Assembly (NCBI GenBank): GCA_026874595.1
Contig: CM049316.1
Span: 31,727,339 to 31,791,338, forward strand
DNA: 64,000 nt
Direction: 5' to 3'
From: Sipunculus nudus
Taxonomy: Eukaryota; Annelida; Sipuncula; Golfingiida; Sipunculidae
This document shows, in pieces, positions 325 through 29,234 of the stretch. The position numbers and the translations under genes were made by a program. The notes under the pieces were generated by a model. It was given only the letters and a program-made list of their open reading frames with translations. It was not told the DNA's origin and did no database searches. Each line of letters starts with the position of its first letter. The stretch's first letter is position 1.

Positions 325-513
325 ATGGTGTCAAAAAGCAATTATGAAGGCATAATCCCTTTGCTTACACTTTGCTTATGCTTTGCTTATTCTTTGCTTA
401 CGGCAAAATCACAACGGAAATGGAGCATTTTCCTAAAAATAAACACTGATATGACCCATAGGGAGATAGACGGGTCCTCTGGCTGCAGAGCGTTCCCGGT
501 TAGTGAACATTAA
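325..513 (+). other. Recurrent 62-codon open frame, probably not a gene (representative)
   Basis: From the ATG box to the TAA in GAACATTAA the frame stays open for 62 codons. It encodes a short polar start, a hydrophobic stretch (IIPLLTLCLCFAYSLL) translated from the 11-bp subrepeats, and a polar tail ending PVSEH. The same frame is open in most monomers but closed in many. All type f copies have TAA at codon 8 (2370, 5921, 9850, 13025 and others). Type x copies have TGA after CAGAAA (6674, 17328, 22760). The monomer at 22385 has TAA within TGCTAATG, and that at 36490 has TAA in AAATAACAAC. Single-base indels break 3498, 27066 and 58971. Because 376-377 is not divisible by 3, neighbouring frames do not join. 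No ribosome-binding or promoter logic accompanies it, and I read it as by-product ORFs of a young repeat. Confidence 0.75.
360..403 (+). repeat. Internal 11-bp tandem subrepeat (4 copies), representative
   Basis: Four consecutive 11-mers are visible: TTTGCTTACAC, TTTGCTTATGC, TTTGCTTATTC and TTTGCTTACGG. The first eight bases are invariant and the last three vary. The tract is present in essentially every monomer about 35 bases after the ATG box. Recurrent variants are TTTGCTTACCC or TTTGCTTAGAC in the first unit and TTTGCTTATGG in the fourth. Some monomers carry an altered unit, such as GTTTTCTTACC in the monomers at 22010, 36867 and 41924. The 11-bp period is close to one helical turn. Confidence 0.93.
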
Positions 514-570
514 TATCAAAAGTAAGGGCAATATCGTTCAATCAAAACCAGAAATGTATATTTCAGCTAT

Positions 571-580
571 TTTTATAAAA
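571..580. other. TTTTATAAAA palindrome in the linker, representative
   Basis: A perfect 10-bp self-complementary sequence lies in the AT-rich linker of every type-1 linker (the TATATTTCAGC form). It is absent from type-2 linkers (the TATAATTCTGC form), for example those ahead of the monomers at 2370, 2746 and 3498. It resembles a TATA box, but nothing else here indicates a promoter. It may simply be AT-rich linker sequence. Some right-domain copies carry TTTTATGAAA (for example near 33944, 39000 and 45186), which destroys the symmetry. Confidence 0.6.
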
Positions 581-701
581 GTCATTTATTGATTTCTTGG
601 ACCCATTTTTCAATTTTAACACAATTTACCTACAGTGTTTTACTATTTCTGACATTATTAGACCCCCGCGAAGTCTAAAAATACATTATTGTCTTCAGAA
701 A

Positions 702-3700
702 ATGGTGCCAAAAAGCAATTATGAAGGCATTATCCCTTTGCTTACACTTTGCTTATGCTTTGCTTATTCTTTGCTTACGGCAAAATCACAGCAGAAATGC
801 AGCATATTCCTAAAAGTACACACTGATATGACCCATAGGGAGACAGACGGGTTCCCTGGCTACACAGCTGTCCCGGTTAGTGAACATTAATATCAAAAAT
901 AAGGGCAATATCGTTCAATCAAAACCGCAAATGTATATTTCAGCTATTTTTATAAAAGTCATTTATTGGTTTCTTGGACCCATTTTCCAATTTTAACACA
1001 ATTTACCTACAGTGTTTTACCATTTCTGACATTATTAGACCCCCGTAAAGTCCAAAAATACATTATTTCTTCAGAAAATGGTGCCAAAAAGCAATTATGA
1101 AGGCATAATCCCTTTGCTTACCCTTTGCTTATGCTTTGCTTATTCTTTGCTTATGGCAAAATCACAACAGAAATGCAGCATTTTCCTAAAAATAAACACT
1201 GATATGACCCATAGGAAGATAGACGGGTACTCTAACTGCACAGCAGTCCCGGTTAGTGAACATTAATATCAATCCCTTTGCTTACCATTTGCTTATGCTG
1301 TGCTTATTCTTTGCTTATGGCAAAATCACAACAGAAATGCAGCATTTTCCTAAAAATACACACTAATATGACCCATAGGGAGACAGACGGGTCCCCTGCC
1401 TACACAGCAGTCCCGGTTAGGGAACAATAATATCAAAAATAAGGGCAATATCGTTCAATCAAAACCGCAAATGTATATTTCAGCTATTTTTATAAAAGTC
1501 ATTTATTGATTTCTTGGACCCATTTTTCAATTTTAACACAATTTACCTACAGTGTTTTACTATTTCTGACATTATTAGACCCCCGCAAAGTCTAAAAATA
1601 CACTATTGTCTTTAGAAAATGGTGCCAAAAAGCAATTATGAAGGCATAATCCCTTTGCTTAGACTTTGCTTATGTTTTGCTTATTCTTTGCTTATGGCAA
1701 AATCACAACAGAAATGCAGCATTTTCCTAAAAATACACACTGATATGACCCATAGGGAGACAGACGGGTTCCCTGGCTACACAGCAGTCCCGGTTAGTGA
1801 ACATTAATATCAAAAATAAGGGCAATATCGTTCAATCAAAACCGCAAATGTATATTTCAGCTATTTTTATAAAAGTCATTTATTGGTTTCTTGGACCCAT
1901 TTTCCAATTTTAACACAATTTCCCTACAGTGTTTTACTATTTCTGACATTATTAAACCCCTGTAAAGTCCAAAAATACATTATTTCTTCAGAAAATGGTG
2001 TCAAAAAGCAATTATGAAGGCATAATCCCTTTGCTTACACTTTGCTTATGCTCTGCTTATTCTTTGCTTACGGCAAAATCACAACAGAAATGCAGCATTT
2101 TCCTAAAAATAAACACTGATATGACAGATAGGGAGACAGACGGGTTCCCTGGCTACACAGCAGTCCCGGTAAGTGAACATTAATATCAAAAGTAAGGGCA
2201 ATATCCTTCAATCAAAACCACAAATGTTTAATTCTGCTTCTTTAAAAAAGTCATTAATTGATTACTGGGACCCATTTTCTAATTTTAACAGAATTTAAAT
2301 ACAGTGTTTCACCATTTCTGACATTATTAGACCCCCGCGAAGTCTAAAAATACATTATTTCTTTATAAAATGGTGCCAAAAAGCAATTATTAAGGCATAT
2401 TCCCTTTGCTTACCCTTTGCTTATGCTTTGCTTATTCTTTGATTACGGCAAAATCACAACGGAAATGGAGCATTTTCCTAAAAATAAACACTGATATGAC
2501 CCATAGGGAGATAGACGGGGACTCTGACTGCACAGCATTCCCGGTTAGTGAACATTAATATCAAAAGTAAGGGCAATACCGTTCAATCAAACCAGAAATG
2601 TATAATTCTGCTTCTTGAAAAAAAATCATTTATTTATTCCTGGGACCCATTTTCTAATTTTCACAGAATTTACCTACAGTGTTTCACCATTTCTGACGTT
2701 ATTAGAGCCCCGCAATGTCTAAAAATACATTATTGTCTTCAGAAAATGGTGCCAAAAAGCAATTATGAAGGCATAATCCCTTTGCTTAGACTTTGCTTAT
2801 GCTTTGCTTATTCTTTGCTTACGGCAAAATCACAACGGAAATGGAGCATTTTCCTAAAAATAAACACTGATATGACCCATAGGGAGATTGACGGGTCCTC
2901 TGGCTGCACAGCGTTCTCGGTTAGTGAACATTTATATCAAAAGTAAGGGCAATATCGTTCAATCAAAACCAGAAATGTATATTTCAGCTATTTTTATAAA
3001 AGTCATTTATTGATTCCTGGGACCTATTTTCTAATTTTAAAAGAATTTACTTACAGTGTTTCACCATTTCTGACGTTATTAGAGCCCCGCAAAGTCTAAA
3101 AATACATTATTGTCTTCAGAAAATGGTGCCAAAAAGCAATTATGAAGGCATAATCCCTTTGCTTACACTTTGCTTATGCTTTGCTTATTCTTTGCTTACG
3201 GCAAAATCACAGCGGAAATGGAGCATTTTCCTAAAAACAAACACTGATATGACAGATAGGGAGACAGACGGGTTCCCTGGCTACACAGCAGTCCCGGTTA
3301 GTGAACATTAATGTCAAAAGTAAGGGCAATATCCTTTAATCAAAACCACAGATGTATAATTCTGCTTCTTTAAGACAGTCATTAATTGATTCCTGGGACC
3401 CATTTTCTAATTTTAACAGAATTTAAATACAGTGTTTCACCATTTCTGACATTATTAGACCCCCGCGAAGTCTAAAAATACATTATTTCTTCATAAAATG
3501 GTGCCAAAAAGCAATTATGAAGGCATATTCCCTTTGCTTACCCTTTGCTTATGCTTTGCTTATTCTTTGCTTACGGCAAAATCACAACGGAAATGGAGCA
3601 TTTTCCTAAAAAATAAACACTGATATGACCCATAAGGAGACAGACGGGTTCCCTGGCTACACAGCAGTCCCGGTTAGTGAACATTAATATAAAAAATAAG

Positions 3701-4252
3701 GGCAATATCGTTCAATCAAAACCGCAAATGTATATTTCAGCTATTTTTATAAAAGTCATTTATTGCTTTCTTTGACCCATTTTCCAATTTTAACACAATT
3801 TACCTACAGTGTTTTACTATTTCTGACATTATTAGACCACCGCTAAGTCTAAAAATACATTATTGTCTTCAGAAAATGGTGTCAAAAAGCAATTATGAAG
3901 GCATAATCCCTTTGCTTACACTTTGCTTATGCTTTGCTTATTCTTTGCTTACGGCAAAATCACAACGGAAATGGAGCATTTTCCTAAAAATAAACACTGA
4001 TATGACCCATAGGGAGATAGACGGGTCCTCTGGCTGCAGAGCGTTCCCGGTTAGTGAACATTAATATCAAAAGTAAGGGCAATATCGTTCAATCAAAACC
4101 AGAAATGTATATTTCAGCTATTTTTATAAAAGTCATTTATTGATTTCTTGGACCCATTTTTCAATTTTAACACAATTTACCTACAGTGTTTTACTATTTC
4201 TGACATTATTAGACCCCCGCGAAGTCTAAAAATACATTATTGTCTTCAGAAA
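702..4252 (+). repeat. HOR unit, 9 monomers plus c' remnant (3551 bp)
   Basis: Monomer starts are b 702, c 1078 (fused with c' to 1618), d 1619, e 1995, f 2370, g 2746, h 3123, i 3498 and a 3876. Type h carries GACAGATAGGG and AAAACAAACACTG. Type g ends in CATTTATATC, which removes the usual stop and extends its open frame to about 2946. Type i at 3498 has one extra A in CCTAAAAAATAAAC. Private changes include GCAATGTCT near 2713 and TTTAAGACAG near 3370. Confidence 0.92.
1078..1618 (+). repeat. Fused c/c' unit with ~211-bp internal deletion (HOR anchor)
   Basis: Type c runs normally to the TAA at 1264-1266 and then joins the middle of the next monomer: ATATCAA continues straight into TCCCTTTGC at about 1271-1273. 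The linker of c and the ATG box of the next monomer are missing, so 541 bp replace about 752. An AA shared by both sides of the junction is compatible with a microhomology deletion. The remnant c' has GCTGTGCTTATTC in its subrepeats and ends GTTAGGGAACAATAATATC. All 14 copies have the same junction, so the deletion happened once and spread with the HOR. Its period defines the HOR boundaries. Confidence 0.95.
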
Positions 4253-7200
4253 ATGGTGCCAAAAAGCAATTATGAAGGCATTATCCCTTTGCTTACACTT
4301 TGCTTATGCTTTGCTTATTCTTTGCTTACGGCAAAATCACAGCAGAAATGCAGCATATTCCTAAAAGTACACACTGATATGACCCATAGGGAGACAGACG
4401 GGTTCCCTGGCTACACAGCTGTCCCGGTTAGTGAACATTAATATCAAAAATAAGGGCAATATCGTTCAATCAAAACCGCAAATGTATATTTCAGCTATTT
4501 TTATAAAAGTCATTTATTGGTTTCTTGGACCCATTTTCCAATTTTAACACAATTTACCTACAGTGTTTTACCATTTCTGACATTATTAGACCCCCGTAAA
4601 GTCCAAAAATACATTATTTCTTCAGAAAATGGTGCCAAAAAGCAATTATGAAGGCATAATCCCTTTGCTTACCCTTTGCTTATGCTTTGCTTATTCTTTG
4701 CTTATGGCAAAATCACAACAGAAATGCAGCATTTTCCTAAAAATAAACACTGATATGACCCATAGGAAGATAGACGGGTACTCTAACTGCACAGCAGTCC
4801 CGGTTAGTGAACATTAATATCAATCCCTTTGCTTACCATTTGCTTATGCTGTGCTTATTCTTTTCTTATGGCAAAATCACAACAGAAATGCAGCATTTTC
4901 CTAAAAATACACACTAATATGACCCATAGGGAGACAGACGGGTCCCCTGCCTACACAGCAGTCCCGGTTAGGGAACAATAATATCAAAAATAAGGGCAAT
5001 ATCGTTCAATCAAAACCGCAAATGTATATTTCAGCTATTTTTATAAAAGTCATTTATTGATTTCTTGGACCCATTTTTCAATTTTAACACAATTTACCTA
5101 CAGTGTTTTACTATTTCTGACATTATTAGACCCCCGCGAAGTCTAAAAATACATTATTGTCTTTAGAAAATGGTGCCAAAAAGCAATTATGAAGGCATAA
5201 TCCCTTTGCTTAGACTTTTCTTATGTTTTGCTTATTCTTTGCTTATGGCAAAATCACAACAGAAATGCAGCATTTTCCTAAAAATACACACTGATATGAC
5301 CCATAGGGAGACAGACGGGTTCCCTGGCTACACAGCAGTCCCGGTTAGTGAACATTAATATAAAAAATAAGGGCAATATCGTTCAATCAAAACCGCAAAT
5401 GTATATTTCAGCTATTTTTATAAAAGTCATTTATTGGTTTCTTGGACCCATTTTCCAATTTTAACACAATTTCCCTACAGTGTTTTACTATTTCTGACAT
5501 TATTAAACCCCTGTAAAGTCCAAAAATACATTATTTCTTCAGAAAATGGTGTCAAAAAGCAATTATGAAGGCATAATCCCTTTGCTTACACTTTGCTTAT
5601 GCTCTGCTTATTCTTTGCTTACGGCAAAATCACAACAGAAATGCAGCATTTTCCTAAAAATAAACACTGATATGACAGATAGGGAGACAGACGGGTTCCC
5701 TGGCTACACAGCAGTCCCGGTAAGTGAACATTAATATCAAAAGTAAGGGCAATATCCTTCAATCAAAACCACAAATGTTTAATTCTGCTTCTTTAAAAAA
5801 GTCATTAATTGATTACTGGGACCCATTTTCTAATTTTAACAGAATTTAAATACAGTGTTTCACCATTTCTGACATTATTAGACCCCCGCGAAGTCTAAAA
5901 ATACATTATTTCTTTATAAAATGGTGCCAAAAAGCAATTATTAAGGCATATTCCCTTTGCTTACCCTTTGCTTATGCTTTGCTTATTCTTTGATTACGGC
6001 AAAATCACAACGGAAATGGAGCATTTTCCTAAAAATAAACACTGATATGACCCATAGGGAGATAGACGGGGACTCTGACTGCACAGCATTCCCGGTTAGT
6101 GAACATTAATATCAAAAGTAAGGGCAATACCGTTCAATCAAACCAGAAATGTATAATTCTGCTTCTTGAAAAAAAATCATTTATTTATTCCTGGGACCCA
6201 TTTTCTAATTTTCACAGAATTTACCTACAGTGTTTCACCATTTCTGACGTTATTAGAGCCCCGCAAAGTCTAAAAATACATTATTGTCTTCAGAAAATGG
6301 TGCCAAAAAGCAATTATGAAGGCATAATCCCTTTGCTTAGACTTTGCTTATGCTTTGCTTATTCTTTGCTTACGGCAAAATCACAACGGAAATGGAGCAT
6401 TTTCCTAAAAATAAACACTGATATGACCCATAGGGAGATTGACGGGTCCTCTGGCTGCACAGCGTTCTCGGTTAGTGAACATTTATATCAAAAGTAAGGG
6501 CAATATCGTTCAATCAAAACCAGAAATGTATATTTCAGCTATTTTTATAAAAGTCATTTATTGATTCCTGGGACCTATTTTCTAATTTTAAAAGAATTTA
6601 CTTACAGTGTTTCACCATTTCTGACGTTATTAGAGCCCCGCAAAGTCTAAAAATACATTATTGTCTTCAGAAAATGGTGCCAAAAAGCAATTATGAAGGC
6701 ATAATCCCTTTGCTTACACTTTGCTTATGCTTTGCTTATTCTTTGCTTACGGCAAAATCACAACAGAAATGAAGCATTTTCCCTAAAAATACACACTAAT
6801 ATGACCCATAGGGAGACAGACGGCTCCCCTGGCTAGACAGCAGTCCCGGATAGTGAACATTAATATCAAAAATAAGGGCAATATCGTTCAATCAAAACCG
6901 CAAATGTATATTTCAGCTATTTTTTATAAAAGTCATTTATTGATTTCTTGGACCCATTTTTCAATTTTAACACAATTTACCTACAGTGTTTTACTATTTC
7001 TGACATTATTAGACCCCCGCGAAGTCTAAAAATACATTATTGTCTTCAGAAAATTGTGCCAAAAAGCAATTATGAAGGCATAATCCCTTTGCTTACACTT
7101 TGCTTATCCTTTGCTTATTCTTTGCTTACGGCAAAATCACAGCGGAAATGGAGCATTTTCCTAAAAACAAACACTGATATGACAGATAGGGAGACAGACG

Positions 7201-8181
7201 GGTTCCCTGGCTACACAGCAGTCCCGGTTAGTGAACATTAATGTCAAAAGTAAGGGCAATATCCTTTAATCAAAACCACAGATGTATAATTCTGCTTCTT
7301 TAAAACAGTCATTAATTGATTCCTGGGACCAATTTTCTAATTTTAACAGAATTTAAATACAGTGTTTCACCATTTCTGACATTATTAGACCCCCGCGAAG
7401 TCTAAAAATACATTATTTCTTCATAAAATGGTGCCAAAAAGCAATTATGAAGGCATATTCCCTTTGCTTACCCTTTGCTTATGCTTTGCTTATTCTTTGC
7501 TTACGGCAAAATCACAACGGAAATGGAGCATTTTCCTAAAAATAAACACTGATATGACCCATAAGGAGACAGACGGGTTCCCTGGCTACACAGCAGTCCC
7601 GGTTAGTGAACATTAATATAAAAAATAAGGGCAATATCGTTCAATCAAAACCGCAAATGTATATTTCAGCTATTTTTATAAAAGTCATTTATTGCTTTCT
7701 TTGACCCATTTTCCAATTTTAACACAATTTACCTACAGTGTTTTACTATTTCTGACATTATTAGACCACCGCTAAGTCTAAAAATACATTATTGTCTTCA
7801 GAAAATGGTGTCAAAAAGCAATTATGAAGGCATAATCCCTTTGCTTACACTTTGCTTATGCTTTGCTTATTCTTTGCTTACGGCAAAATCACAACGGAAA
7901 TGGAGCATTTTCCTAAAAATAAACACTGATATGACCCATAGGGAGATAGACGGGTCCTCTGGCTGCAGAGCGTTCCCGGTTAGTGAACATTAATATCAAA
8001 AGTAAGGGCAATATCGTTCAATCAAAACCAGAAATGTATATTTCAGCTATTTTTATAAAAGTCATTTATTGATTTCTTGGACCCATTTTTCAATTTTAAC
8101 ACAATTTACCTACAGTGTTTTACTATTTCTGACATTATTAGACCCCCGCGAAGTCTAAAAATACATTATTGTCTTCAGAAA
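4253..8181 (+). repeat. HOR unit, 10 monomers plus c' remnant (3929 bp)
   Basis: Starts are b 4253, c 4629 (with c' to 5169), d 5170, e 5546, f 5921, g 6297, x 6674, h 7053, i 7428 and a 7805. It equals the preceding unit plus one inserted monomer, x. Type x has AAATGAAGC (a stop in the ATG frame), CTGGCTAGACAGC, and CCGGATAGTG in place of CCGGTTAGTG. The h copy after x has AAAATTGTGCC, so its box lacks ATG, and it reads TTATCCTTTGC in the subrepeat tract. Both traits recur after x in the unit at 14907 and at 23138. Confidence 0.92.
4629..5169 (+). repeat. c/c' fused unit, copy 2
   Basis: Same junction as in copy 1. The remnant reads TTTTCTTATGG in its last 11-bp unit, a variant shared only with copy 5 at 15283. 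Confidence 0.93.
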
Positions 8182-11100
8182 ATGGTGCCAAAAAGCAATT
8201 ATGAAGGCATTATCCCTTTGCTTACACTTTGCTTATGCTTTGCTTATTCTTTGCTTACGGCAAAATCACAGCAGAAATGCAGCATATTCCTAAAAGTACA
8301 CACTGATATGACCCATAGGGAGACAGACGGGTTCCCTGGCTACACAGCTGTCCCGGTTAGTGAACATTAATATCAAAAATAAGGGCAATATCGTTCAATC
8401 AAAACCGCAAATGTATATTTCAGCTATTTTTATAAAAGTCATTTATTGGTTTCTTGGACCCATTTTCCAATTTTAACACAATTTACCTACAGTGTTTTAC
8501 CATTTCTGACATTATTAGACCCCCGTAAAGTCCAAAAATACATTATTTCTTCAGAAAATGGTGCCAAAAAGCAATTATGAAGGCATAATCCCTTTGCTTA
8601 CCCTTTGCTTATGCTTTGCTTATTCTTTGCTTATGGCAAAATCACAACAGAAATGCAGCATTTTCCTAAAAATAAACACTGATATGACCCATAGGAAGAT
8701 AGACGGGTACTCTAACTGCACAGCAGTCCCGGTTAGTGAACATTAATATCAATCCCTTTGCTTACCATTTGCTTATGCTGTGCTTATTCTTTGCTTATGG
8801 CAAAATCACAACAGAAATGCAGCATTTTCCTAAAAATACACACTAATATGACCCATAGGGAGACAGACGGGTCCCCTGCCTACACAGCAGTCCCGGTTAG
8901 GGAACAATAATATCAAAAATAAGGGCAATATCGTTCAATCAAAACCGCAAATGTATATTTCAGCTATTTTTATAAAAGTCATTTATTGATTTCTTGGACC
9001 CATTTTTCAATTTTAACACAATTTACCTACAGTGTTTTACTATTTCTGACATTATTAGACCACCGCGAAGTCTAAAAATACATTATTGTCTTTAGAAAAT
9101 GGTGCCAAAAAGCAATTATGAAGGCATAATCCCTTTGCTTAGACTTTGCTTATGTTTTGCTTATTCTTTGCTTATGGCAAAATCACAACAGAAATGCAGC
9201 ATTTTCCTAAAAATACACACTGATATGACCCATAGGGAGACAGACGGGTTCCCTGGCTACACAGCAGTCCCGGTTAGTGAACATTAATATCAAAAATAAG
9301 GGCAATATCGTTCAATCAAAACCGCAAATGTATATTTCAGCTATTTTTATAAAAGTCATTTATTGGTTTCTTGGACCCATTTTCCAATTTTAACACAATT
9401 TCCCTACAGTGTTTTACTATTTCTGACATTATTAAACCCCTGTAAAGTCCAAAAATACATTATTTCTTCAGAAAATGGTGTCAAAAAGCAATTATGAAGG
9501 CATAATCCCTTTGCTTACACTTTGCTTATGCTCTGCTTATTCTTTGCTTACGGCAAAATCACAACAGAAATGCAGCATTTTCCTAAAAATAAACACTGAT
9601 ATGACAGATAGGGAGACAGACGGGTTCCCTGGCTACACAGCAGTCCCGGTAAGTGAACATTAATATCAAAAGTAAGGGCAATATCCTTCAATCAAAACCA
9701 CAAATGTTTAATTCTGCTTCTTTAAAAAAGTCATTAATTGATTACTGGGACCCATTTTCTAATTTTAACAGAATTTAAATACAGTGTTTCACCATTTCTG
9801 ACATTATTAGACCCCCGCGAAGTCTAAAAATACATTATTTCTTTATAAAATGGTGCCAAAAAGCAATTATTAAGGCATATTCCCTTTGCTTACCCTTTGC
9901 TTATGCTTTGCTTATTCTTTGATTACGGCAAAATCACAACGGAAATGGAGCATTTTCCTAAAAATAAACACTGATATGACCCATAGGGAGATAGACGGGG
10001 ACTCTGACTGCACAGCATTCCCGGTTAGTGAACATTAATATCAAAAGTAAGGGCAATACCGTTCAATCAAACCAGAAATGTATAATTCTGCTTCTTGAAA
10101 AAAAATCATTTATTTATTCCTGGGACCCATTTTCTAATTTTCACAGAATTTACCTACAGTGTTTCACCATTTCTGACGTTATTAGAGCCCCGCAAAGTCT
10201 AAAAATACATTATTGTCTTCAGAAAATGGTGCCAAAAAGCAATTATGAAGGCATAATCCCTTTGCTTAGACTTTGCTTATGCTTTGCTTATTCTTTGCTT
10301 ACGGCAAAATCACAACGGAAATGGAGCATTTTCCTAAAAATAAACACTGATATGACCCATAGGGAGATTGACGGGTCCTCTGGCTGCACAGCGTTCTCGG
10401 TTAGTGAACATTTATATCAAAAGTAAGGGCAATATCGTTCAATCAAAACCAGAAATGTATATTTCAGCTATTTTTATAAAAGTCATTTATTGATTCCTGG
10501 GACCTATTTTCTAATTTTAAAAGAATTTACTTACAGTGTTTCACCATTTCTGACGTTATTAGAGCCCCGCAAAGTCTAAAAATACATTATTGTCTTCAGA
10601 AAATGGTGCCAAAAAGCAATTATGAAGGCATAATCCCTTTGCTTACACTTTGCTTATGCTTTGCTTATTCTTTGCTTACGGCAAAATCACAACGGAAATG
10701 GAGCATTTTCCTAAAAATAAACACTGATATGACCCATAGGGAGACAGACGGGTTCCCTGGCTACACAGCAGTCCCGGTTAGTGAACATTAATATCAAAAA
10801 TAAGGGCAATATCGTTCAATCAAAACCAGAAATGTATATTTCAGCTATTTTTATAAAAGTCATTTATTGATTCCTGGGACCTATTTTCTAATTTTAAAAG
10901 AATTTACCTACAGTGTTTCACCATTTCTGACGTTATTAGAGCCCCGTAAAGTCTAAAAATACATTATTGTCTTCAGAAAATGGTGCCAAAAAGCAATTAT
11001 GAAGGCATAATCCCTTTGCTTACCCTTTGCTTATGCTTTGCTTATTCCTTGCTTATGGCAAAATCACAACAGAAATGCAGCAATTCCCTAAAAATACACA

Positions 11101-11356
11101 CTAATATGACCCATAGGGAGACATACGGGTCCCCTGGCTACACAGCAGTCCCGGTTAGTGAACATTAATATCAAAAGTAAGGGCAATATCGTTCAATCAA
11201 AACCAGAAATGTATATTTCAGCTATTTTTATAAAAGTCATTTATTGATTTCTTGGACCCATTTTTCAATTTTAACACAATTTACCTACAGTGTTTTACTA
11301 TTTCTGACATTTTTAGACCCCCGCGAAGTCTAAAAATACATTATTGTCTTCAGAAA
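8182..11356 (+). repeat. HOR unit, 8 monomers plus c' remnant (3175 bp)
   Basis: Starts are b 8182, c 8558 (with c' to 9098), d 9099, e 9475, f 9850, g 10226, h' 10603 and j 10980. The h-i-a trio of the longer units is replaced by h' and j. Type h' lacks the GACAGATAGGG signature of h and reads GACCCATAGGGAGACAG. Type j has ATTCCTTGCTTATGG, CAGCAATTCCC and GGAGACATACGGG. After j the array returns directly to type b at 11357, without an intervening type a. Confidence 0.92.
8558..9098 (+). repeat. c/c' fused unit, copy 3
   Basis: Same junction. The remnant has CCCCTGCCTACAC, the left-domain form. The spacer before the next monomer reads ACCACCGCGAAG, which marks the 8-monomer HOR. Confidence 0.93.
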
Positions 11357-14300
11357 ATGGTGCCAAAAAGCAATTATGAAGGCATTATCCCTTTGCTTAC
11401 ACTTTGCTTATGCTTTGCTTATTCTTTGCTTACGGCAAAATCACAGCAGAAATGCAGCATATTCCTAAAAGTACACACTGATATGACCCATAGGGAGACA
11501 GACGGGTTCCCTGGCTACACAGCTGTCCCGGTTAGTGAACATTAATATCAAAAATAAGGGCAATATCGTTCAATCAAAACCGCAAATGTATATTTCAGCT
11601 ATTTTTATAAAAGTCATTTATTGGTTTCTTGGACCCATTTTCCAATTTTAACACAATTTACCTACAGTGTTTTACCATTTCTGACATTATTAGACCCCCG
11701 TAAAGTCCAAAAATACATTATTTCTTCAGAAAATGGTGCCAAAAAGCAATTATGAAGGCATAATCCCTTTGCTTACCCTTTGCTTATGCTTTGCTTATTC
11801 TTTGCTTATGGCAAAATCACAACAGAAATGCAGCATTTTCCTAAAAATAAACACTGATATGACCCATAGGAAGATAGACGGGTACTCTAACTGCACAGCA
11901 GTCCCGGTTAGTGAACATTAATATCAATCCCTTTGCTTACCATTTGCTTATGCTGTGCTTATTCTTTGCTTATGGCAAAATCACAACAGAAATGCAGCAT
12001 TTTCCTAAAAATACACACTAATATGACCCATAGGGAGACAGACGGGTCCCCTGCCTACACAGCAGTCCCGGTTAGGGAACAATAATATCAAAAATAAGGG
12101 CAATATCGTTCAATCAAAACCGCAAATGTATATTTCAGCTATTTTTATAAAAGTCATTTATTGATTTCTTGGACCCATTTTTCAATTTTAACACAATTTA
12201 CCTACAGTGTTTTACTATTTCTGACATTATTAGACCCCCGCAAAGTCTAAAAATACATTATTGTCTTTAGAAAATGGTGCCAAAAAGCAATTATGAAGGC
12301 ATAATCCCTTTGCTTAGACTTTGCTTATGTTTTGCTTATTCTTTGCTTATGGCAAAATCACAACAGAAATGCAGCATTTTCCTAAAAATACACACTGATA
12401 TGACCCATAGGGAGACAGACGGGTTCCCTGGCTACACAGCAGTCCCGGTTAGTGAACATTAATATCAAAAATAAGGGCAATATCGTTCAATCAAAACCGC
12501 AAATGTATATTTCAGCTATTTTTATAAAAGTCATTTATTGGTTTCTTGGACCCATTTTCCAATTTTAACACAATTTCCCTACAGTGTTTTACTATTTCTG
12601 ACATTATTAAACCCCTGTAAAGTCCAAAAATACATTATTTCTTCAGAAAATGGTGTCAAAAAGCAATTATGAAGGCATAATCCCTTTGCTTACACTTTGC
12701 TTATGCTCTGCTTATTCTTTGCTTACGGCAAAATCACAACAGAAATGCAGCATTTTCCTAAAAATAAACACTGTTATGACAGATAGGGAGACAGACGGGT
12801 TCCCTGGCTACACAGCAGTCCCGGTAAGTGAACATTAATATCAAAAGTAAGGGCAATATCCTTCAATCAAAACCACAAATGTTTAATTCTGCTTCTTTAA
12901 AAAAGTCATTAATTGATTACTGGGACCCATTTTCTAATTTTAACAGAATTTAAATACAGTGTTTCACCATTTCTGACATTATTAGACCCCCGCGAAGTCT
13001 AAAAATACATTATTTCTTTATAAAATGGTGCCAAAAAGCAATTATTAAGGCATATTCCCTTTGCTTACCCTTTGCTTATGCTTTGCTTATTCTTTGATTA
13101 CGGCAAAATCACAACGGAAATGGAGCATTTTCCTAAAAATAAACACTGATATGACCCATAGGGAGATAGACGGGGACTCTGACTGCACAGCATTCCCGGT
13201 TAGTGAACATTAATATCAAAAGTAAGGGCAATACCGTTCAATCAAACCAGAAATGTATAATTCTGCTTCTTGAAAAAAAATCATTTATTTATTCCTGGGA
13301 CCCATTTTCTAATTTTCACAGAATTTACCTACAGTGTTTCACCATTTCTGACGTTATTAGAGCCCCGCAAAGTCTAAAAATACATTATTGTCTTCAGAAA
13401 ATGGTGCCAAAAAGCAATTATGAAGGCATAATCCCTTTGCTTAGACTTTGCTTATGCTTTGCTTATTCTTTGCTTACGGCAAAATCACAACGGAAATGGA
13501 GCATTTTCCTAAAAATAAACACTGATATGACCCATAGGGAGATTGACGGGTCCTCTGGCTGCACAGCGTTCTCGGTTAGTGAACATTTATATCAAAAGTA
13601 AGGGCAATATCGTTCAATCAAAACCAGAAATGTATATTTCAGCTATTTTTATAAAAGTCATTTATTGATTCCTGGGACCTATTTTCTAATTTTAAAAGAA
13701 TTTACTTACAGTGTTTCACCATTTCTGACGTTATTAGAGCCCCGCAAAGTCTAAAAATACATTATTGTCTTCAGAAAATGGTGCCAAAAAGCAATTATGA
13801 AGGCATAATCCCTTTGCTTACACTTTGCTTATGCTTTGCTTATTCTTTGCTTACGGCAAAATCACAGCGGAAATGGAGCATTTTCCTAAAAACAAACACT
13901 GATATGACAGATAGGGAGACAGACGGGTTCCCTGGCTACACAGCAGTCCCGGTTAGTGAACATTAATGTCAAAAGTAAGGGCAATATCCTTTAATCAAAA
14001 CCACAGATGTATAATTCTGCTTCTTTAAAACAGTCATTAATTGATTCCTGGGACCCATTTTCTAATTTTAACAGAATTTAAATACAGTGTTTCACCATTT
14101 CTGACATTATTAGACCCCCGCGAAGTCTAAAAATACATTATTTCTTCATAAAATGGTGCCAAAAAGCAATTATGAAGGCATATTCCCTTTGCTTACCCTT
14201 TGCTTATGCTTTGCTTATTCTTTGCTTACGGCAAAATCACAACGGAAATGGAGCATTTTCCTAAAAATAAACACTGATATGACCCATAAGGAGACAGACG

Positions 14301-14906
14301 GGTTCCCTGGCTACACAGCAGTCCCGGTTAGTGAACATTAATATAAAAAATAAGGGCAATATCGTTCAATCAAAACCGCAAATGTATATTTCAGCTATTT
14401 TTATAAAAGTCATTTATTGCTTTCTTTGACCCATTTTCCAATTTTAACACAATTTACCTACAGTGTTTTACTATTTCTGACATTATTAGACCACCGCTAA
14501 GTCTAAAAATACATTATTGTCTTCAGAAAATGGTGTCAAAAAGCAATTATGAAGGCATAATCCCTTTGCTTACACTTTGCTTATGCTTTGCTTATTCTTT
14601 GCTTACGGCAAAATCACAACGGAAATGGAGCATTTTCCTAAAAATAAACACTGATATGACCCATAGGGAGATAGACGGGTCCTCTGGCTGCAGAGCGTTC
14701 CCGGTTAGTGAACATTAATATCAAAAGTAAGGGCAATATCGTTCAATCAAAACCAGAAATGTATATTTCAGCTATTTTTATAAAAGTCATTTATTGATTT
14801 CTTGGACCCATTTTTCAATTTTAACACAATTTACCTACAGTGTTTTACTATTTCTGACATTATTAGACCCCCGCGAAGTCTAAAAATACATTATTGTCTT
14901 CAGAAA
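11357..14906 (+). repeat. HOR unit, 9 monomers plus c' remnant (3550 bp)
   Basis: Starts are b 11357, c 11733 (with c' to 12273), d 12274, e 12650, f 13025, g 13401, h 13778, i 14153 and a 14530. It corresponds to 702-4252 and is one base shorter because type i lacks the extra A. Upstream of b the spacer reads GACATTTTTAGAC (near 11308) where other copies have GACATTATTAGAC. Confidence 0.92.
11733..12273 (+). repeat. c/c' fused unit, copy 4
   Basis: Same junction and left-domain CCCCTGCCTACAC. The spacer before d reads CCCCGCAAAG, as in copy 1, linking the two 9-monomer HORs. Confidence 0.93.
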
Positions 14907-17900
14907 ATGGTGCCAAAAAGCAATTATGAAGGCATTATCCCTTTGCTTACACTTTGCTTATGCTTTGCTTATTCTTTGCTTACGGCAAAATCACAGCAGA
15001 AATGCAGCATATTCCTAAAAGTACACACTGATATGACCCATAGGGAGACAGACGGGTTCCCTGGCTACACAGCTGTCCCGGTTAGTGAACATTAATATCA
15101 AAAATAAGGGCAATATCGTTCAATCAAAACCGCAAATGTATATTTCAGCTATTTTTATAAAAGTCATTTATTGGTTTCTTGGACCCATTTTCCAATTTTA
15201 ACACAATTTACCTACAGTGTTTTACCATTTCTGACATTATTAGACCCCCGTAAAGTCCAAAAATACATTATTTCTTCAGAAAATGGTGCCAAAAAGCAAT
15301 TATGAAGGCATAATCCCTTTGCTTACCCTTTGCTTATGCTTTGCTTATTCTTTGCTTATGGCAAAATCACAACAGAAATGCAGCATTTTCCTAAAAATAA
15401 ACACTGATATGACCCATAGGAAGATAGACGGGTACTCTAACTGCACAGCAGTCCCGGTTAGTGAACATTAATATCAATCCCTTTGCTTACCATTTGCTTA
15501 TGCTGTGCTTATTCTTTTCTTATGGCAAAATCACAACAGAAATGCAGCATTTTCCTAAAAATACACACTAATATGACCCATAGGGAGACAGACGGGTCCC
15601 CTGCCTACACAGCAGTCCCGGTTAGGGAACAATAATATCAAAAATAAGGGCAATATCGTTCAATCAAAACCGCAAATGTATATTTCAGCTATTTTTATAA
15701 AAGTCATTTATTGATTTCTTGGACCCATTTTTCAATTTTAACACAATTTACCTACAGTGTTTTACTATTTCTGACATTATTAGACCCCCGCGAAGTCTAA
15801 AAATACATTATTGTCTTTAGAAAATGGTGCCAAAAAGCAATTATGAAGGCATAATCCCTTTGCTTAGACTTTGCTTATGTTTTGCTTATTCTTTGCTTAT
15901 GGCAAAATCACAACAGAAATGCAGCATTTTCCTAAAAATACACACTGATATGACCCATAGGGAGACAGACGGGTTCCCTGGCTACACAGCAGTCCCGGTT
16001 AGTGAACATTAATATCAAAAATAAGGGCAATATCGTTCAATCAAAACCGCAAATGTATATTTCAGCTATTTTTATAAAAGTCATTTATTGGTTTCTTGGA
16101 CCCATTTTCCAATTTTAACACAATTTCCCTACAGTGTTTTACTATTTCTGACATTATTAAACCCCTGTAAAGTCCAAAAATACATTATTTCTTCAGAAAA
16201 TGGTGTCAAAAAGCAATTATGAAGGCATAATCCCTTTGCTTACACTTTGCTTATGCTCTGCTTATTCTTTGCTTACGGCAAAATCACAACAGAAATGCAG
16301 CATTTTCCTAAAAATAAACACTGATATGACAGATAGGGAGACAGACGGGTTCCCTGGCTACACAGCAGTCCCGGTAAGTGAACATTAATATCAAAAGTAA
16401 GGGCAATATCCTTCAATCAAAACCACAAATGTTTAATTCTGCTTCTTTAAAAAAGTCATTAATTGATTACTGGGACCCATTTTCTAATTTTAACAGAATT
16501 TAAATACAGTGTTTCACCATTTCTGACATTATTAGACCCCCGCGAAGTCTAAAAATACATTATTTCTTTATAAAATGGTGCCAAAAAGCAATTATTAAGG
16601 CATATTCCCTTTGCTTACCCTTTGCTTATGCTTTGCTTATTCTTTGATTACGGCAAAATCACAACGGAAATGGAGCATTTTCCTAAAAATAAACACTGAT
16701 ATGACCCATAGGGAGATAGACGGGGACTCTGACTGCACAGCATTCCCGGTTAGTGAACATTAATATCAAAAGTAAGGGCAATACCGTTCAATCAAACCAG
16801 AAATGTATAATTCTGCTTCTTGAAAAAAAATCATTTATTTATTCCTGGGACCCATTTTCTAATTTTCACAGAATTTACCTACAGTGTTTCACCATTTCTG
16901 ACGTTATTAGAGCCCCGCAAAGTCTAAAAATACATTATTGTCTTCAGAAAATGGTGCCAAAAAGCAATTATGAAGGCATAATCCCTTTGCTTAGACTTTG
17001 CTTATGCTTTGCTTATTCTTTGCTTACGGCAAAATCACAACGGAAATGGAGCATTTTCCTAAAAATAAACACTGATATGACCCATAGGGAGATTGACGGG
17101 TCCTCTGGCTGCACAGCGTTCTCGGTTAGTGAACATTTATATCAAAAGTAAGGGCAATATCGTTCAATCAAAACCAGAAATGTATATTTCAGCTATTTTT
17201 ATAAAAGTCATTTATTGATTCCTGGGACCTATTTTCTAATTTTAAAAGAATTTACTTACAGTGTTTCACCATTTCTGACGTTATTAGAGCCCCGCAAAGT
17301 CTAAAAATACATTATTGTCTTCAGAAAATGGTGCCAAAAAGCAATTATGAAGGCATAATCCCTTTGCTTACACTTTGCTTATGCTTTGCTTATTCTTTGC
17401 TTACGGCAAAATCACAACAGAAATGAAGCATTTTCCCTAAAAATACACACTAATATGACCCATAGGGAGACAGACGGCTCCCCTGGCTAGACAGCAGTCC
17501 CGGATAGTGAACATTAATATCAAAAATAAGGGCAATATCGTTCAATCAAAACCGCAAATGTATATTTCAGCTATTTTTATAAAAGTCATTTATTGATTTC
17601 TTGGACCCATTTTTCAATTTTAACACAATTTACCTACAGTGTTTTACTATTTCTGACATTATTAGACCCCCGCGAAGTCTAAAAATACATTATTGTCTTC
17701 AGAAAATTGTGCCAAAAAGCAATTATGAAGGCATAATCCCTTTGCTTACACTTTGCTTATCCTTTGCTTATTCTTTGCTTACGGCAAAATCACAGCGGAA
17801 ATGGAGCATTTTCCTAAAAACAAACACTGATATGACAGATAGGGAGACAGACGGGTTCCCTGGCTACACAGCAGTCCCGGTTAGTGAACATTAATGTCAA

Positions 17901-18834
17901 AAGTAAGGGCAATATCCTTTAATCAAAACCACAGATGTATAATTCTGCTTCTTTAAAACAGTCATTAATTGATTCCTGGGACCAATTTTCTAATTTTAAC
18001 AGAATTTAAATACAGTGTTTCACCATTTCTGACATTATTAGACCCCCGCGAAGTCTAAAAATACATTATTTCTTCATAAAATGGTGCCAAAAAGCAATTA
18101 TGAAGGCATATTCCCATTGCTTACCCTTTGCTTATGCTTTGCTTATTCTTTGCTTACGGCAAAATCACAACGGAAATGGAGCATTTTCCTAAAAATAAAC
18201 ACTGATATGACCCATAAGGAGACAGACGGGTTCCCTGGCTACACAGCAGTCCCGGTTAGTGAACATTAATATAAAAAATAAGGGCAATATCGTTCAATCA
18301 AAACCGCAAATGTATATTTCAGCTATTTTTATAAAAGTCATTTATTGCTTTCTTTGACCCATTTTCCAATTTTAACACAATTTACCTACAGTGTTTTACT
18401 ATTTCTGACATTATTAGACCACCGCTAAGTCTAAAAATACATTATTGTCTTCAGAAAATGGTGTCAAAAAGCAATTATGAAGGCATAATCCCTTTGCTTA
18501 CACTTTGCTTATGCTTTGCTTATTCTTTGCTTACGGCAAAATCACAACGGAAATGCAGCATTTTCCTAAAAATAAACACTGATATGACCCATAGGGAGAT
18601 AGACGGGTCCTCTGGCTGCAGAGCGTTCCCGGTTAGTGAACATTAATATCAAAAGTAAGGGCAATATCGTTCAATCAAAACCAGAAATGTATATTTCAGC
18701 TATTTTTATAAAAGTCATTTATTGATTTCTTGGACCCATTTTTCAATTTTAACACAATTTACCTACAGTGTTTTACTATTTCTGACATTATTAGACCCCC
18801 GCGAAGTCTAAAAATACATTATTGTCTTCAGAAA
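14907..18834 (+). repeat. HOR unit, 10 monomers plus c' remnant (3928 bp)
   Basis: Starts are b 14907, c 15283 (with c' to 15823), d 15824, e 16200, f 16575, g 16951, x 17328, h 17706, i 18081 and a 18458. It corresponds to 4253-8181. It is one base shorter because the T run ahead of TATAAAA after monomer x has one T fewer than at about 6918. Type a here has AAATGCAGC instead of AAATGGAGC (about 18552). Confidence 0.92.
15283..15823 (+). repeat. c/c' fused unit, copy 5
   Basis: Same junction. It shares the TTTTCTTATGG variant with copy 2, linking the two 10-monomer HORs. Confidence 0.93.
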
Positions 18835-21800
18835 ATGGTGCCAAAAAGCAATTATGAAGGCATTATCCCTTTGCTTACACTTTGCTTATGCTTTGCTTAT
18901 TCTTTGCTTACGGCAAAATCACAGCAGAAATGCAGCATATTCCTAAAAGTACACACTGATATGACCCATAGGGAGACAGACGGGTTCCCTGGCTACACAG
19001 CTGTCCCGGTTAGTGAACATTAATATCAAAAATAAGGGCAATATCGTTCAATCAAAACCGCAAATGTATATTTCAGCTATTTTTATAAAAGTCATTTATT
19101 GGTTTCTTGGACCCATTTTCCAATTTTAACACAATTTACCTACAGTGTTTTACCATTTCTGACATTATTAGACCCCCGTAAAGTCCAAAAATACATTATT
19201 TCTTCAGAAAATGGTGCCAAAAAGCAATTATGAAGGCATAATCCCTTTGCTTACCCTTTGCTTATGCTTTGCTTATTCTTTGCTTATGGCAAAATCACAA
19301 CAGAAATGCAGCATTTTCCTAAAAATAAACACTGATATGACCCATAGGAAGATAGACGGGTACTCTAACTGCACAGCAGTCCCGGTTAGTGAACATTAAT
19401 ATCAATCCCTTTGCTTACCATTTGCTTATGCTGTGCTTATTCTTTGCTTATGGCAAAATCACAACAGAAATGCAGCATTTTCCTAAAAATACACACTAAT
19501 ATGACCCATAGGGAGACAGACGGGTCCCCTGCCTACACAGCAGTCCCGGTTAGGGAACAATAATATCAAAAATAAGGGCAATATCGTTCAATCAAAACCG
19601 CAAATGTATATTTCAGCTATTTTTATAAAAGTCATTTATTGATTTCTTGGACCCATTTTTCAATTTTAACACAATTTACCTACAGTGTTTTACTATTTCT
19701 GACATTATTAGACCACCGCGAAGTCTAAAAATACATTATTGTCTTTAGAAAATGGTGCCAAAAAGCAATTATGAAGGCATAATCCCTTTGCTTAGACTTT
19801 GCTTATGTTTTGCTTATTCTTTGCTTATGGCAAAATCACAACAGAAATGCAGCATTTTCCTAAAAATACACACTGATATGACCCATAGGGAGACAGACGG
19901 GTTCCCTGGCTACACAGCAGTCCCGGTTAGTGAACATTAATATCAAAAATAAGGGCAATATCGTTCAATCAAAACCGCAAATGTATATTTCAGCTATTTT
20001 TATAAAAGTCATTTATTGGTTTCTTGGACCCATTTTCCAATTTTAACACAATTTCCCTACAGTGTTTTACTATTTCTGACATTATTAAACCCCTGTAAAG
20101 TCCAAAAATACATTATTTCTTCAGAAAATGGTGTCAAAAAGCAATTATGAAGGCATAATCCCTTTGCTTACACTTTGCTTATGCTCTGCTTATTCTTTGC
20201 TTACGGCAAAATCACAACAGAAATGCAGCATTTTCCTAAAAATAAACATTGATATGACAGATAGGGAGACAGACGGGTTCCCTGGCTACACAGCAGTCCC
20301 GGTAAGTGAACATTAATATCAAAAGTAAGGGCAATATCCTTCAATCAAAACCACAAATGTTTAATTCTGCTTCTTTAAAAAAGTCATTAATTGATTACTG
20401 GGACCCATTTTCTAATTTTAACAGAATTTAAATACAGTGTTTCACCATTTCTGACATTATTAGACCCCCGCGAAGTCTAAAAATACATTATTTCTTTATA
20501 AAATGGTGCCAAAAAGCAATTATTAAGGCATATTCCCTTTGCTTACCCTTTGCTTATGCTTTGCTTATTCTTTGATTACGGCAAAATCACAACGGAAATG
20601 GAGCATTTTCCTAAAAATAAACACTGATATGACCCATAGGGAGATAGACGGGGACTCTGACTGCACAGCATTCCCGGTTAGTGAACATTAATATCAAAAG
20701 TAAGGGCAATACCGTTCAATCAAACCAGAAATGTATAATTCTGCTTCTTGAAAAAAAATCATTTATTTATTCCTGGGACCCATTTTCTAATTTTCACAGA
20801 ATTTACCTACAGTGTTTCACCATTTCTGACGTTATTAGAGCCCCGCAAAGTCTAAAAATACATTATTGTCTTCAGAAAATGGTGCCAAAAAGCAATTATG
20901 AAGGCATAATCCCTTTGCTTAGACTTTGCTTATGCTTTGCTTATTCTTTGCTTACGGCAAAATCACAACGGAAATGGAGCATTTTCCTAAAAATAAACAC
21001 TGATATGACCCATAGGGAGATTGACGGGTCCTCTGGCTGCACAGCGTTCTCGGTTAGTGAACATTTATATCAAAAGTAAGGGCAATATCGTTCAATCAAA
21101 ACCAGAAATGTATATTTCAGCTATTTTTATAAAAGTCATTTATTGATTCCTGGGACCTATTTTCTAATTTTAAAAGAATTTACTTACAGTGTTTCACCAT
21201 TTCTGACGTTATTAGAGCCCCGCAAAGTCTAAAAATACATTATTGTCTTCAGAAAATGGTGCCAAAAAGCAATTATGAAGGCATAATCCCTTTGCTTACA
21301 CTTTGCTTATGCTTTGCTTATTCTTTGCTTACGGCAAAATCACAACGGAAATGGAGCATTTTCCTAAAAATAAACACTGATATGACCCATAGGGAGACAG
21401 ACGGGTTCCCTGGCTACACAGCAGTCCCGGTTAGTGAACATTAATATCAAAAATAAGGGCAATATCGTTCAATCAAAACCAGAAATGTATATTTCAGCTA
21501 TTTTTATAAAAGTCATTTATTGATTCCTGGGACCTATTTTCTAATTTTAAAAGAATTTACCTACAGTGTTTCACCATTTCTGACGTTATTAGAGCCCCGT
21601 AAAGTCTAAAAATACATTATTGTCTTCAGAAAATGGTGCCAAAAAGCAATTATGAAGGCATAATCCCTTTGCTTACCCTTTGCTTATGCTTTGCTTATTC
21701 CTTGCTTATGGCAAAATCACAACAGAAATGCAGCAATTCCCTAAAAATACACACTAATATGACCCATAGGGAGACATACGGGTCCCCTGGCTACACAGCA

Positions 21801-22009
21801 GTCCCGGTTAGTGAACATTAATATCAAAAGTAAGGGCAATATCGTTCAATCAAAACCAGAAATGTATATTTCAGCTATTTTTATAAAAGTCATTTATTGA
21901 TTTCTTGGACCCATTTTTCAATTTTAACACAATTTACCTACAGTGTTTTACTATTTCTGACATTATTAGACCCCCGCGAAGTCTAAAAATACATTATTGT
22001 CTTTAGAAA
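18835..22009 (+). repeat. HOR unit, 8 monomers plus c' remnant (3175 bp)
   Basis: Starts are b 18835, c 19211 (with c' to 19751), d 19752, e 20128, f 20503, g 20879, h' 21256 and j 21633. It corresponds to 8182-11356 and has the same length. It is the last regular unit of the left domain. Confidence 0.92.
19211..19751 (+). repeat. c/c' fused unit, copy 6
   Basis: Same junction. This is the last copy with the left-domain CCCCTGCCTACAC form (about 19526). Its spacer ACCACCGCGAAG matches copy 3. Confidence 0.93.
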
Positions 22010-25000
22010 ATGGTGCCAAAAAGCAATTATGAAGGCATAATCCGTTTTCTTACCCTTTGCTTATGCTTTGCTTATTCTTTGCTTACGGCAAAATCACAAC
22101 GGAAATGGAGCATTTTCCTAAAAATAAACACTGATATGACCCATAGGGAGATAGACGGGGACTCTGACTGCACAGCAGTCCCGGTTAGTGAACATTAATA
22201 TCAAAAGTAAGGGCAATATCGTTCAATCAAAACCAGAAATGTATAATTCTGCTACTTTAAAAAAGTCATTCATTGATTCCTGGGACCTATTTTCTAAATT
22301 TAAAAGAATTTACCTACAGTGTTTCACCATTTCTGACGTTATTAGAGCCCCGCAAATCTAAAAATACATTATTGTCTTCAAAAAATGGTGCCAAAAAGCA
22401 ATTATGAAGGCATAATCCCTTTGCTTACACTTTGCTAATGCTTTGCTTATTCTTTGCTTACGGCAAAATCACAACAGAAATGCAGCATTTTCCTAAAAAT
22501 ACATACTTATATTACCCATATCGAGACAAACGGGCTCCCTGGCTACACAGCAGTCACGGTCAGTGAAGATTAATATCAAAAGTAAGGGCAATATCGTTCA
22601 ATAAAAACCGCAGATGTATAATTCTGCTACTTTAAAAAAGTCATTTATTGATTCCTGGGACCCATTTTCTAATTTTAACAGAATTTAAATACAGTGTTTC
22701 ACCATTTCTGACATTATTAGACCCCCGCAAAGCCCAAATATACATTATTTCTTCAGAAAATGGTGCCAAAAAGCAATTATGAAGGCATAATCCCTTTGCT
22801 TACACTTTGCTCATGCTTTGCTTATTCTTTGCTTACGGCAAAATCACAACAGAAATGAAGCATTTTCCCTAAAAATACACACTAATATGACCCATAGGGA
22901 GACAGACGGCTCCCCTGGCTAGACAGCAGTCCCGGATAGTGAACATTAATATCAAAAATAAGGGCAATATCGTTCAATCAAAACCGCAAATGTATATTTC
23001 AGCTATTTTTATAAAAGTCATTTATTGATTTCTTGGACCCATTTTTCAATTTTAACACAATTTACCTACAGTGTTTTACTATTTCTGACATTATTAGACC
23101 CCCGCGAAGTCTAAAAATACATTATTGTCTTCAGAAAATTGTGCCAAAAAGCAATTATGAAGGCATAATCCCTTTGCTTACACTTTGCTTATCCTTTGCT
23201 TATTCTTTGCTTACGGCAAAATCACAGCGGAAATGGAGCATTTTCCTAAAAACAAACACTGATATGACAGATAGGGAGACAGACGGGTTCCCTGGCTACA
23301 CAGCAGTCCCGGTTAGTGAACATTAATGTCAAAAGTAAGGGCAATATCCTTTAATCAAAACCACAGATGTATAATTCTGCTTCTTTAAAACAGTCATTAA
23401 TTGATTCCTGGGACCCATTTTCTAATTTTAACAGAATTTAAATACAGTGTTTCACCATTTCTGACATTATTAGACCCCCGCGAAGTCTAAAAATACATTA
23501 TTTCTTCATAAAATGGTGCCAAAAAGCAATTATGAAGGCATATTCCCTTTGCTTACCCTTTGCTTATGCTTTGCTTATTCTTTGCTTACGGCAAAATCAC
23601 AACGGAAATGGAGCATTTTCCTAAAAATAAACACTGATATGACCCATAAGGAGACAGACGGGTTCCCTGGCTACACAGCAGTCCCGGTTAGTGAACATTA
23701 ATATCAAAAATAAGGGCAATATCGTTCAATCAAAACCGCAAATGTATATTTCAGCTATTTTTATAAAAGTCATTTATTGCTTTCTTTGACCCATTTTCCA
23801 ATTTTAACACAATTTACCTACAGTGTTTTACCATTTCTGACATTATTAGACCCCCGTAAAGTCCAAAAATACATTATTTCTTCAGAAAATGGTGCCAAAA
23901 AGCAATTATGAAGGCATAATCCCTTTGCTTACCCTTTGCTTATGCTTTGCTAATTCTTTGCTTACGGCAAAATCACAGCGGAAATGGAGCATTTTCCTAA
24001 AAATAAACACTGATATGACAGATAGGGAGACAGACGGGTTCCCTGGCTACACAGCAGTCCCGGTTAGTGAACATTAATGTCAAAAGTAAGGGCAATATCC
24101 TTTAATCAAAACCACAAATGTATAATTCTGCTTCTTTAAAAAAGTCATTAATTGATTCCTGGGACCCATTTTCTAATTTTAACAGAATTTAAATACAGTG
24201 TTTCACCATTTCTGACATTATTAGACCCCCGCGAAGTCTAAAAATACATTATTTCTTCATAAAATGGTGCCAAAAAGCAATTATGAAGGCATATTCCCTT
24301 TGCTTACCCTTTGCTTATGCTTTGCTTATTCTTTGCTTACGGCAAAATCACAACGGAAATGGAGCATTTTCCTAAAAATAAACACTGATATGACCCATAG
24401 GGAGATAGACGGGGACTCTGACTGCACAGCATTCCCGGTTAGTGAACATTAATATCAAAAGTAAGGGCAATATCGTTCAATCAAAACCAGAAATGTATAA
24501 TTCTGCTTCTTGAAAAAAAATCATTTATTTATTCCTGGGACCCATTTTCTAATTTTCACAGAATTTACCTACAGTGTTTCACCATTTCTGACGTTATTAG
24601 AGCCCCGCAAAGTCTAAAAATACATTATTGTCTTCAGAAAATGGTGCCAAAAAGCAATAATGAATGCATAATCCCTTTGCTTACACTTTGCTTATGCTTT
24701 GCTTATTCTTTGCTTACGGCAAAATCACAACGGAAATGGAGCATTTTCCTAAAAATAAACACTGATATGACCCATAGGGAGATTGACGGGTCCTCTGGCT
24801 GCACAGCGTTCTCGGTTAGTGAACATTAATATCAAAAGTAAGGGCAATATCGTTCAATCAAAACCAGAAATGTATATTTCAGCTATTTTTATAAAAGTCA
24901 TTTATTGATTCCTGGGACCTATTTTCTAATTTTAAAAGAATTTACCTACAATGTTTCACCATTTCTGACGTTATTAGAGCCCCGCAAAGTCTAAAAATAC

Positions 25001-29092: not shown

Positions 29093-29234
29093 ATGGTGCC
29101 AAAAAGCAATTATGAAGGCATAATCCCTTTGCTTAGACTTTGCTTATGTTTAAAAATACATTATTGTCTTCAGAAAATGGTGCCAAAAAGCAATTATGAA
29201 GGCATAATCCCTTTGCTTAGACTTTGCTTATGCT
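29010..29234 (+). repeat. Complex rearrangement: 20-bp duplication plus 84-bp partial duplication
   Basis: After TTTCTTGGACCCC the normal continuation (ATTTTCCAATTTT) is missing. A 20-bp segment starting TTGGACGTTATTAGAG appears twice in tandem (29019-29038 and 29039-29058) and then runs into a normal GCAAAGTC spacer. A second event follows: the sequence from TAAAAATACATT to CTTATG is present twice, 84 bp apart (29067-29150 and 29151-29234). The first copy ends CTTATGTTT, as in type d, and the second continues CTTATGCTTTGC, as in type s, so it is better read as a d-to-s fusion at a T/A-rich site than as slippage. The tandem boxes create a 108-codon open frame (29039-29365), which has no sign of function. 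An assembly error cannot be excluded. Confidence 0.85.

Follow-up and report, generated by a model that had tools for sequence, protein, structure and literature searches.

The whole 64,000-nt stretch of DNA analysed here (the window) is a tandem satellite whose monomer measures about 377 bp. A boundary motif of 14 bases has 166 matches on the + strand when up to three substitutions are allowed, and a stricter scan of the whole window (at most two substitutions) found none on the minus strand. Automatic cutting yielded 179 segments, grouped into 27 clusters at a distance of 8; 74 of the 179 are 377 bp long, 46 are 376 bp and 30 are 375 bp, so the monomer length of 376 bp given in the initial annotation is better replaced by 377 bp. 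The automatic boundaries were wrong at 25853, 29122 and 47061, where fragment labels were unreliable before hand correction; the corrected monomer set has 177 rows. Distinct monomer types mostly differ at 10-49 of about 377 positions, and a few pairs at 6-9. A comparison of shared tracts covered 26 types, restricted to monomers of 341-399 bp, with the truncated monomer D and the stretch at 28602 excluded. Many of these types are mosaic, sharing long tracts with change points that recur near monomer positions 140, 199 and 238, a pattern that suggests frequent short exchanges between monomers of the array. Neither tRNA genes nor any Rfam family at the gathering threshold was found in the 64-kb window. 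Positions 1-2000 had no match among plasmids, a 23-bp pattern had none in a set of genome contigs, and a 23-bp pattern matched viral contigs once, in AT-rich DNA whose 1,411 bases look unrelated on inspection. The CENP-B box is common in centromeric satellites but not required there; the motif, with at most one mismatch, has a single match in the window against 3.68 expected by chance.

Read along the + strand, the first part of the window begins with monomers A B C. These are followed by a 9-mer HOR (D E F G H I J A B C, 1107-4657), a 10-mer (D E F G H I K J A B C, 4658-8586) and an 8-mer (D E F G H I L M C, 8587-11761). The 9-mer and the 10-mer then recur at 11762-15311 and 15312-19239, and a third unit, D E F G H I L M without its closing C, occupies 19240-22038 and is followed by N O K J P Q H I R S. 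The 164-bp monomer D opens every HOR as cut here and is carried by each, although it is absent from the count of nine, ten or eight. Its joint with E occurs 14 times in the window with at most one substitution, in both HOR domains, which suggests that the truncated D arose by a single founding deletion; D itself, at 1107-1270 and 13 further places, is a likely founder marker of the array.

With a cut at 702, the HOR lengths proposed in the initial annotation (3551, 3929 and 3175 bp, then 3550, 3928 and 3175 bp) tile exactly, with boundaries at 702, 4253, 8182, 11357, 14907, 18835 and 22010. Copy 1 of the block (702-11356, 10,655 bp) aligned to copy 2 (11357-22009, 10,653 bp) with 10,642 matches, 11 mismatches and two 1-bp gaps, or 99.90% identity. 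Control shifts of the block by 3551, 7480 and 3175 bp left 770-774 gap bases and, among the bases that aligned, identities of 97.0%, 95.9% and 95.8%. The interval 702-11356 is one of several equivalent cuts; at its widest the likeness joins 494-11385 to 11149-22038, about 10,654 bp to the right. Since this matching stretch exceeds one period, the ends of the block are ambiguous by about 237 bp, and the two copies overlap in a 237-bp seam tract. Over the widest extent there are 14 differing positions, two of which are the same mutation (11312) counted twice. Partner HORs are thus 99.9% identical, compared with monomer types that mostly differ at 10-49 of about 377 positions, and the order D E F G H I ... 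recurs, which places the sequence among HOR satellite arrays. These data support the copying of a 10.65-kb, three-HOR segment as one contiguous long block. The proposal that long blocks rather than single monomers are copied is supported: three HOR variants appear contiguously twice over 10.65 kb, and the 13 differences are private to single copies. Of the three nesting levels proposed with it (11 bp and 376 bp, 3-4 kb, 10.65 kb), the 11-bp level is, among the repeat matches listed, about four short repeats within the monomer and not a nested monomer array, and the 10.65-kb level does not show the periodicity of a level within the window, as set out below.

To describe how the HORs pair, we number them H1 to H6 in the order 9-, 10-, 8-, 9-, 10-, 8-mer. 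Partners 10.65 kb apart differ by four (H1/H4), four (H2/H5) and three (H3/H6) mismatches. Adjacent HORs differ by 8 (H1/H2), 36 (H2/H3), 40 (H3/H4), 6 (H4/H5) and 36 (H5/H6), and two other non-partner pairs by 6 (H2/H4) and 8 (H1/H5). Partners are thus closer than neighbours (3-4 mismatches against 6-40), as the initial annotation had predicted; between 9-mers and 10-mers, at 4 against 6-8 mismatches over the length common to both, raw identity is weak evidence of pairing. In ungapped 1-kb windows over positions 1-22,000, the 10.65-kb partner was listed first in 11 of 22 and tied first in four more; in the remaining windows another HOR was ahead by about a base or an indel disrupted the diagonal.

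Shared-derived sites make a stronger case than raw identity. When the six HORs were aligned monomer by monomer, 18 sites varied, five shared-derived and 13 private, and none was conflicting. All five shared-derived sites pair HORs at 10.65 kb and not neighbours, as had been claimed for the diagnostic bases: E43 and J250 join the 10-mers, E317 and J27 the 9-mers, and E312 the 8-mers. J sites were scored in four HORs; K and M sites were scored in only two and so are unable to conflict. In this alignment HORs that lack J, A, B, K, L or M contribute no data for those monomers, H6 contributes none for C, and L is without an outgroup. The private sites divide into eight in copy 1 and five in copy 2, and at all 13 the outgroup monomers (one to three per type) carry the other state. 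Monomer content agrees in form, K occurring among the six HORs only in H2 and H5 and L-M only in H3 and H6. The four diagnostic strings also pair the HORs as claimed, though two of them occur elsewhere in the window. The string GGACCAATTTTC is found only at 7326 and 17979, and ACCACCGCGAAG only at 9059 and 19712. The string TTTTCTTATG pairs the 10-mers at 4861 and 15515 and has nine places in all, including one at 5216 that is private to H2; CCCCGCAAAG has 40 places, with 1581 and 12236 as the informative pair. Columns of a whole-HOR MAFFT alignment were also considered as pairing evidence (59 variable ungapped columns, 45 of which separate H3 and H6). This count was dropped because 44 of the 45, all but column 880, align L-M to J-A, which are different monomers; the column at window position 3212 is an alignment artefact.

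Piecewise conversion of the three HORs from a template 10.65 kb away could also make partners alike, and the long tracts shared in mosaic fashion across many monomer types indicate that short exchanges seem to occur in this array. Conversion of that kind is nevertheless very improbable as the source of the block, given that HOR lengths and all five shared-derived sites agree block-wide, that the 18 sites hold no patch of other ancestry, and that the likeness shifts sharply at 494 and 11385.

The 9-mer and the 10-mer differ by monomer K, the extra monomer x of the initial annotation, which lies at 6703-7081, 17357-17734 and 22789-23166. K is followed by J in all three occurrences, the last of which is outside the block. 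The J of the 9-mer (3152-3526; partner 13807-14181) resembles a K/J hybrid. It has K's base at position 27 and is J-like from 61, and in H1 it is identical to K over positions 1-60. From these features the 9-mer looks like a 10-mer that has lost one monomer, leaving a K/J hybrid with one diagnostic base as the putative scar. The monomer does pair the 10-mers, as proposed; it is better read as lost from the 9-mer than as gained by the 10-mer. Its insertion into the 10-mer was set aside as less simple, because K-J also stands outside the block at 22789-23541 and the 9-mer J carries the K-like base at position 27.

The edges of the block were then compared with their counterparts. Counted in steps of 100 bp along the 10.65-kb diagonal, starting at position 1, mismatches number 1, 5, 15, 3 and 14, then 0 or 1, a profile as would be expected of different monomers of one family giving way to a true copy. 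There is one mismatch in the 208 bp preceding 702 and 16 in the next 140 bp to the left. The left flank within the window is only 493 bp long and is not uniformly unlike its counterpart; it consists of A and a 5′ portion of B, an arrangement like that near the end of a 9-mer or 10-mer. At the right edge the diagonal ends as soon as the next monomer begins: beyond 11385 there are 10 mismatches per 100 bp in the first two windows, after which the phase is lost. On the copy 2 side the 10.65-kb likeness ends at 22038, and the right flank (22039-25799) reads N O K J P Q H I R S.

In copy 1, the M monomer at the seam (11009-11385) adjoins C, whose usual preceding monomer is B. M is a mosaic, its 5′ part like types S/X and its 3′ part like B, and positions 141-377 match B except for one private base per M copy, at 304 in copy 1 and at 343 in copy 2. 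Compared with the B at the left edge (354-730), the M of copy 2 has 17 differences, 16 of them within positions 1-140 and the other at 343. The excess of about 237 bp over one period is this tract common to M and B. The copies are thus arranged head to tail, with their seam inside the 237-bp M/B tract and in the same monomer phase, as unequal exchange would leave them, and the B at 354-730 is the likely exchange partner of M. Among 325 type pairs, the longest B-M tract with at most one difference (238 bp, by type consensus) is tied 7th-9th. The B-like bases are present in both M copies and in part in the M at 55075, which implies that the M/B likeness either predates the duplication or was copied later.

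Based on these results, the block is probably one tandem duplication, about 10,654 bp long, in a 377-bp satellite array, produced by exchange between M and B. In the ancestral array, A B C would have stood ahead of a 9-mer and then a 10-mer, with D E F G H I L M N O K J P Q after them. The 9-mer would have arisen from the 10-mer earlier, through loss of one monomer by K-J recombination, and before the duplication each of the three units (9-mer, 10-mer and third unit) would have acquired single mutations of its own. An out-of-register exchange within the 237 bp common to M and B would then have joined M to C and duplicated everything between, so that the closed 8-mer would be the junction product; afterwards copy 1 would have gained eight private changes and copy 2 five. 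The 18 sites give no hint of later exchange between the copies. The same product would result from unequal sister-chromatid exchange, meiotic unequal crossover, break-induced replication or re-insertion of an excised circle, and these routes are not distinguished here. Changes per HOR number about one to two before the duplication (five over three HORs) and about two after it (13 over six), placing the HOR variants and the duplication at similar ages on the array's clock.

The initial annotation had described the block as a second-order HOR, and two occurrences of the 9-10-8 series are indeed present; a periodic third level is not shown, as the window holds only two copies and the flanks in it do not continue the series. 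By the count of two given for superHORs in PMC8336445, applied here by string count, the formal threshold is reached, the second occurrence lacking its closing C. Periodic continuation is not seen in the window, where the diagonal ends at 494 and 11385. The 8-mer is closed only at the seam, and its copy 2 counterpart continues into N-O-K-J-P-Q. It is unlikely that the window shows the last two periods of a longer 9-10-8 superHOR array that was later ended at the M/N boundary. Although M is an S/X-B mosaic in both copies, so that the M-to-C junction could be older than the duplication, and although the CentromereArchitect default count for a superHOR is, as described in PMC8336445, only two, such an array would have needed at least one further event, the M/N break. 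Moreover, the left flank of 493 bp holds A and a 5′ portion of B in place of L and M, so no 8-mer directly precedes the block, and copy 2 after L-M reads N-O-K-J-P, in which K-J plus an A-like monomer is the order of a 10-mer (P and A differ at eight positions).

An assembly artefact, with two haplotypes or one segment entered twice and set head to tail, would also yield two near-identical copies. A divergence of 0.1% is possible between two alleles as well, and in two of the 13 differences a short homopolymer differs in length by 1 bp. We nonetheless judge this improbable: the window contains no N bases, the seam is in phase within a 237-bp tract that seems short for a false long-read overlap, and copies of blocks are present elsewhere in the window (such as the 1,898 bp at 42174 that recur unchanged at 53038). 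A more far-reaching reading, which we consider doubtful, treats the edge of the satellite domain as the seed of a new superHOR, exchange between an edge and an internal monomer having captured L-M, closed a new HOR and doubled the block. If this were true, monomers drawn in from the border would enlarge the array, and other haplotypes or chromosomes of the species would carry at least three 10.65-kb periods.

The remainder of the window comprises a transition zone (22039-34097) of irregular monomer order and a second HOR domain (34098-64000). In the transition zone, monomer O (22414-22788) has at least 30 differences from each other full type, and an aberrant stretch at 28602-29232 contains two perfect local tandem duplications, of a 20-bp unit (2.2 copies, 29015-29058) and of an 84-bp unit (two copies, 29067-29232). 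Units of the second domain measure 5058, 6184, 5808, 5432 and 3926 bp, sharing a D-E-F-G-H core and differing by whole monomers; full-length HOR comparisons there were partly mis-gapped and were left out. The D-E-F-G-H cores of the six block HORs have 1-6 differences mutually and 13-17 against the six cores in 34-64 kb, which have 0-11 among themselves; a stretch at 25800 with the order D-E-F-I has 96-99 differences from the cores. Positions 42174-44071 are identical to 53038-54935 (1,898 bp, offset 10,864), and the second half also holds a 2,742-bp block copy with one mismatch at an offset of 5,432. With long copies in the second half too, block copying appears frequent in this window, and we regard the 10.65-kb block as its clearest case. 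In our judgement the mechanism of the duplication is ordinary and the event unusually readable.

Satellite arrays reportedly evolve by unequal crossing over in Smith's model. As in unequal crossing over generally, the single duplication proposed here has an out-of-register exchange duplicating a block at matched monomer phase; nothing differs in principle, and in this case the likely partners and the seam can be named. Unequal crossing over is also named among the causes of centromere variation in a passage of PMC11062924. Word searches of open full text, which are unable to exclude a description, did not find the 377-bp satellite in print. The account of Tcast1b of Tribolium castaneum in PMC3411249 gives a 377-bp monomer, a match in length alone that is uninformative, and where PMC11121367 and PMC8495327 print '377 bp' the number refers to something else.

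The nearest parallels are among known nested repeats. In human centromeres, as the CentromereArchitect description (PMC8336445) has it, an HOR string that recurs at least twice is a superHOR, and hybrid monomers are probable deletion scars, such as the K+F hybrid of cenX. The Sipunculus block is similar in having a string of several HORs as its unit and a hybrid monomer as a probable scar; it differs in being a 377-bp satellite, and its two tandem copies do not go on as an array within the window. Cascading HORs and superHORs are described for great apes in PMC12428378, for example the orangutan Y 58mer, for which the abstract gives 67 copies and the body and Table 3 give 310. That unit is likewise long and repeats monomer types internally, whereas it recurs many times and the block here only twice. 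The quartic HOR of hornerin, as presented in PMC9584774, also has several nested tandem levels, in that case of 39-bp units grouped by 9, 2 and 2 inside a gene; in the Sipunculus block HOR lengths vary and the top level is a single duplication. The 10.65-kb duplication leaves the known picture of satellite evolution unchanged. It provides a specific instance in which a block of several HORs was copied, in a satellite of 377 bp rather than the 171-bp alpha satellite of primates. The event can be followed almost to the single base, from the likely partners and the seam tract to the order of events and the later private mutations, a readability that we consider uncommon in homogenised satellite.
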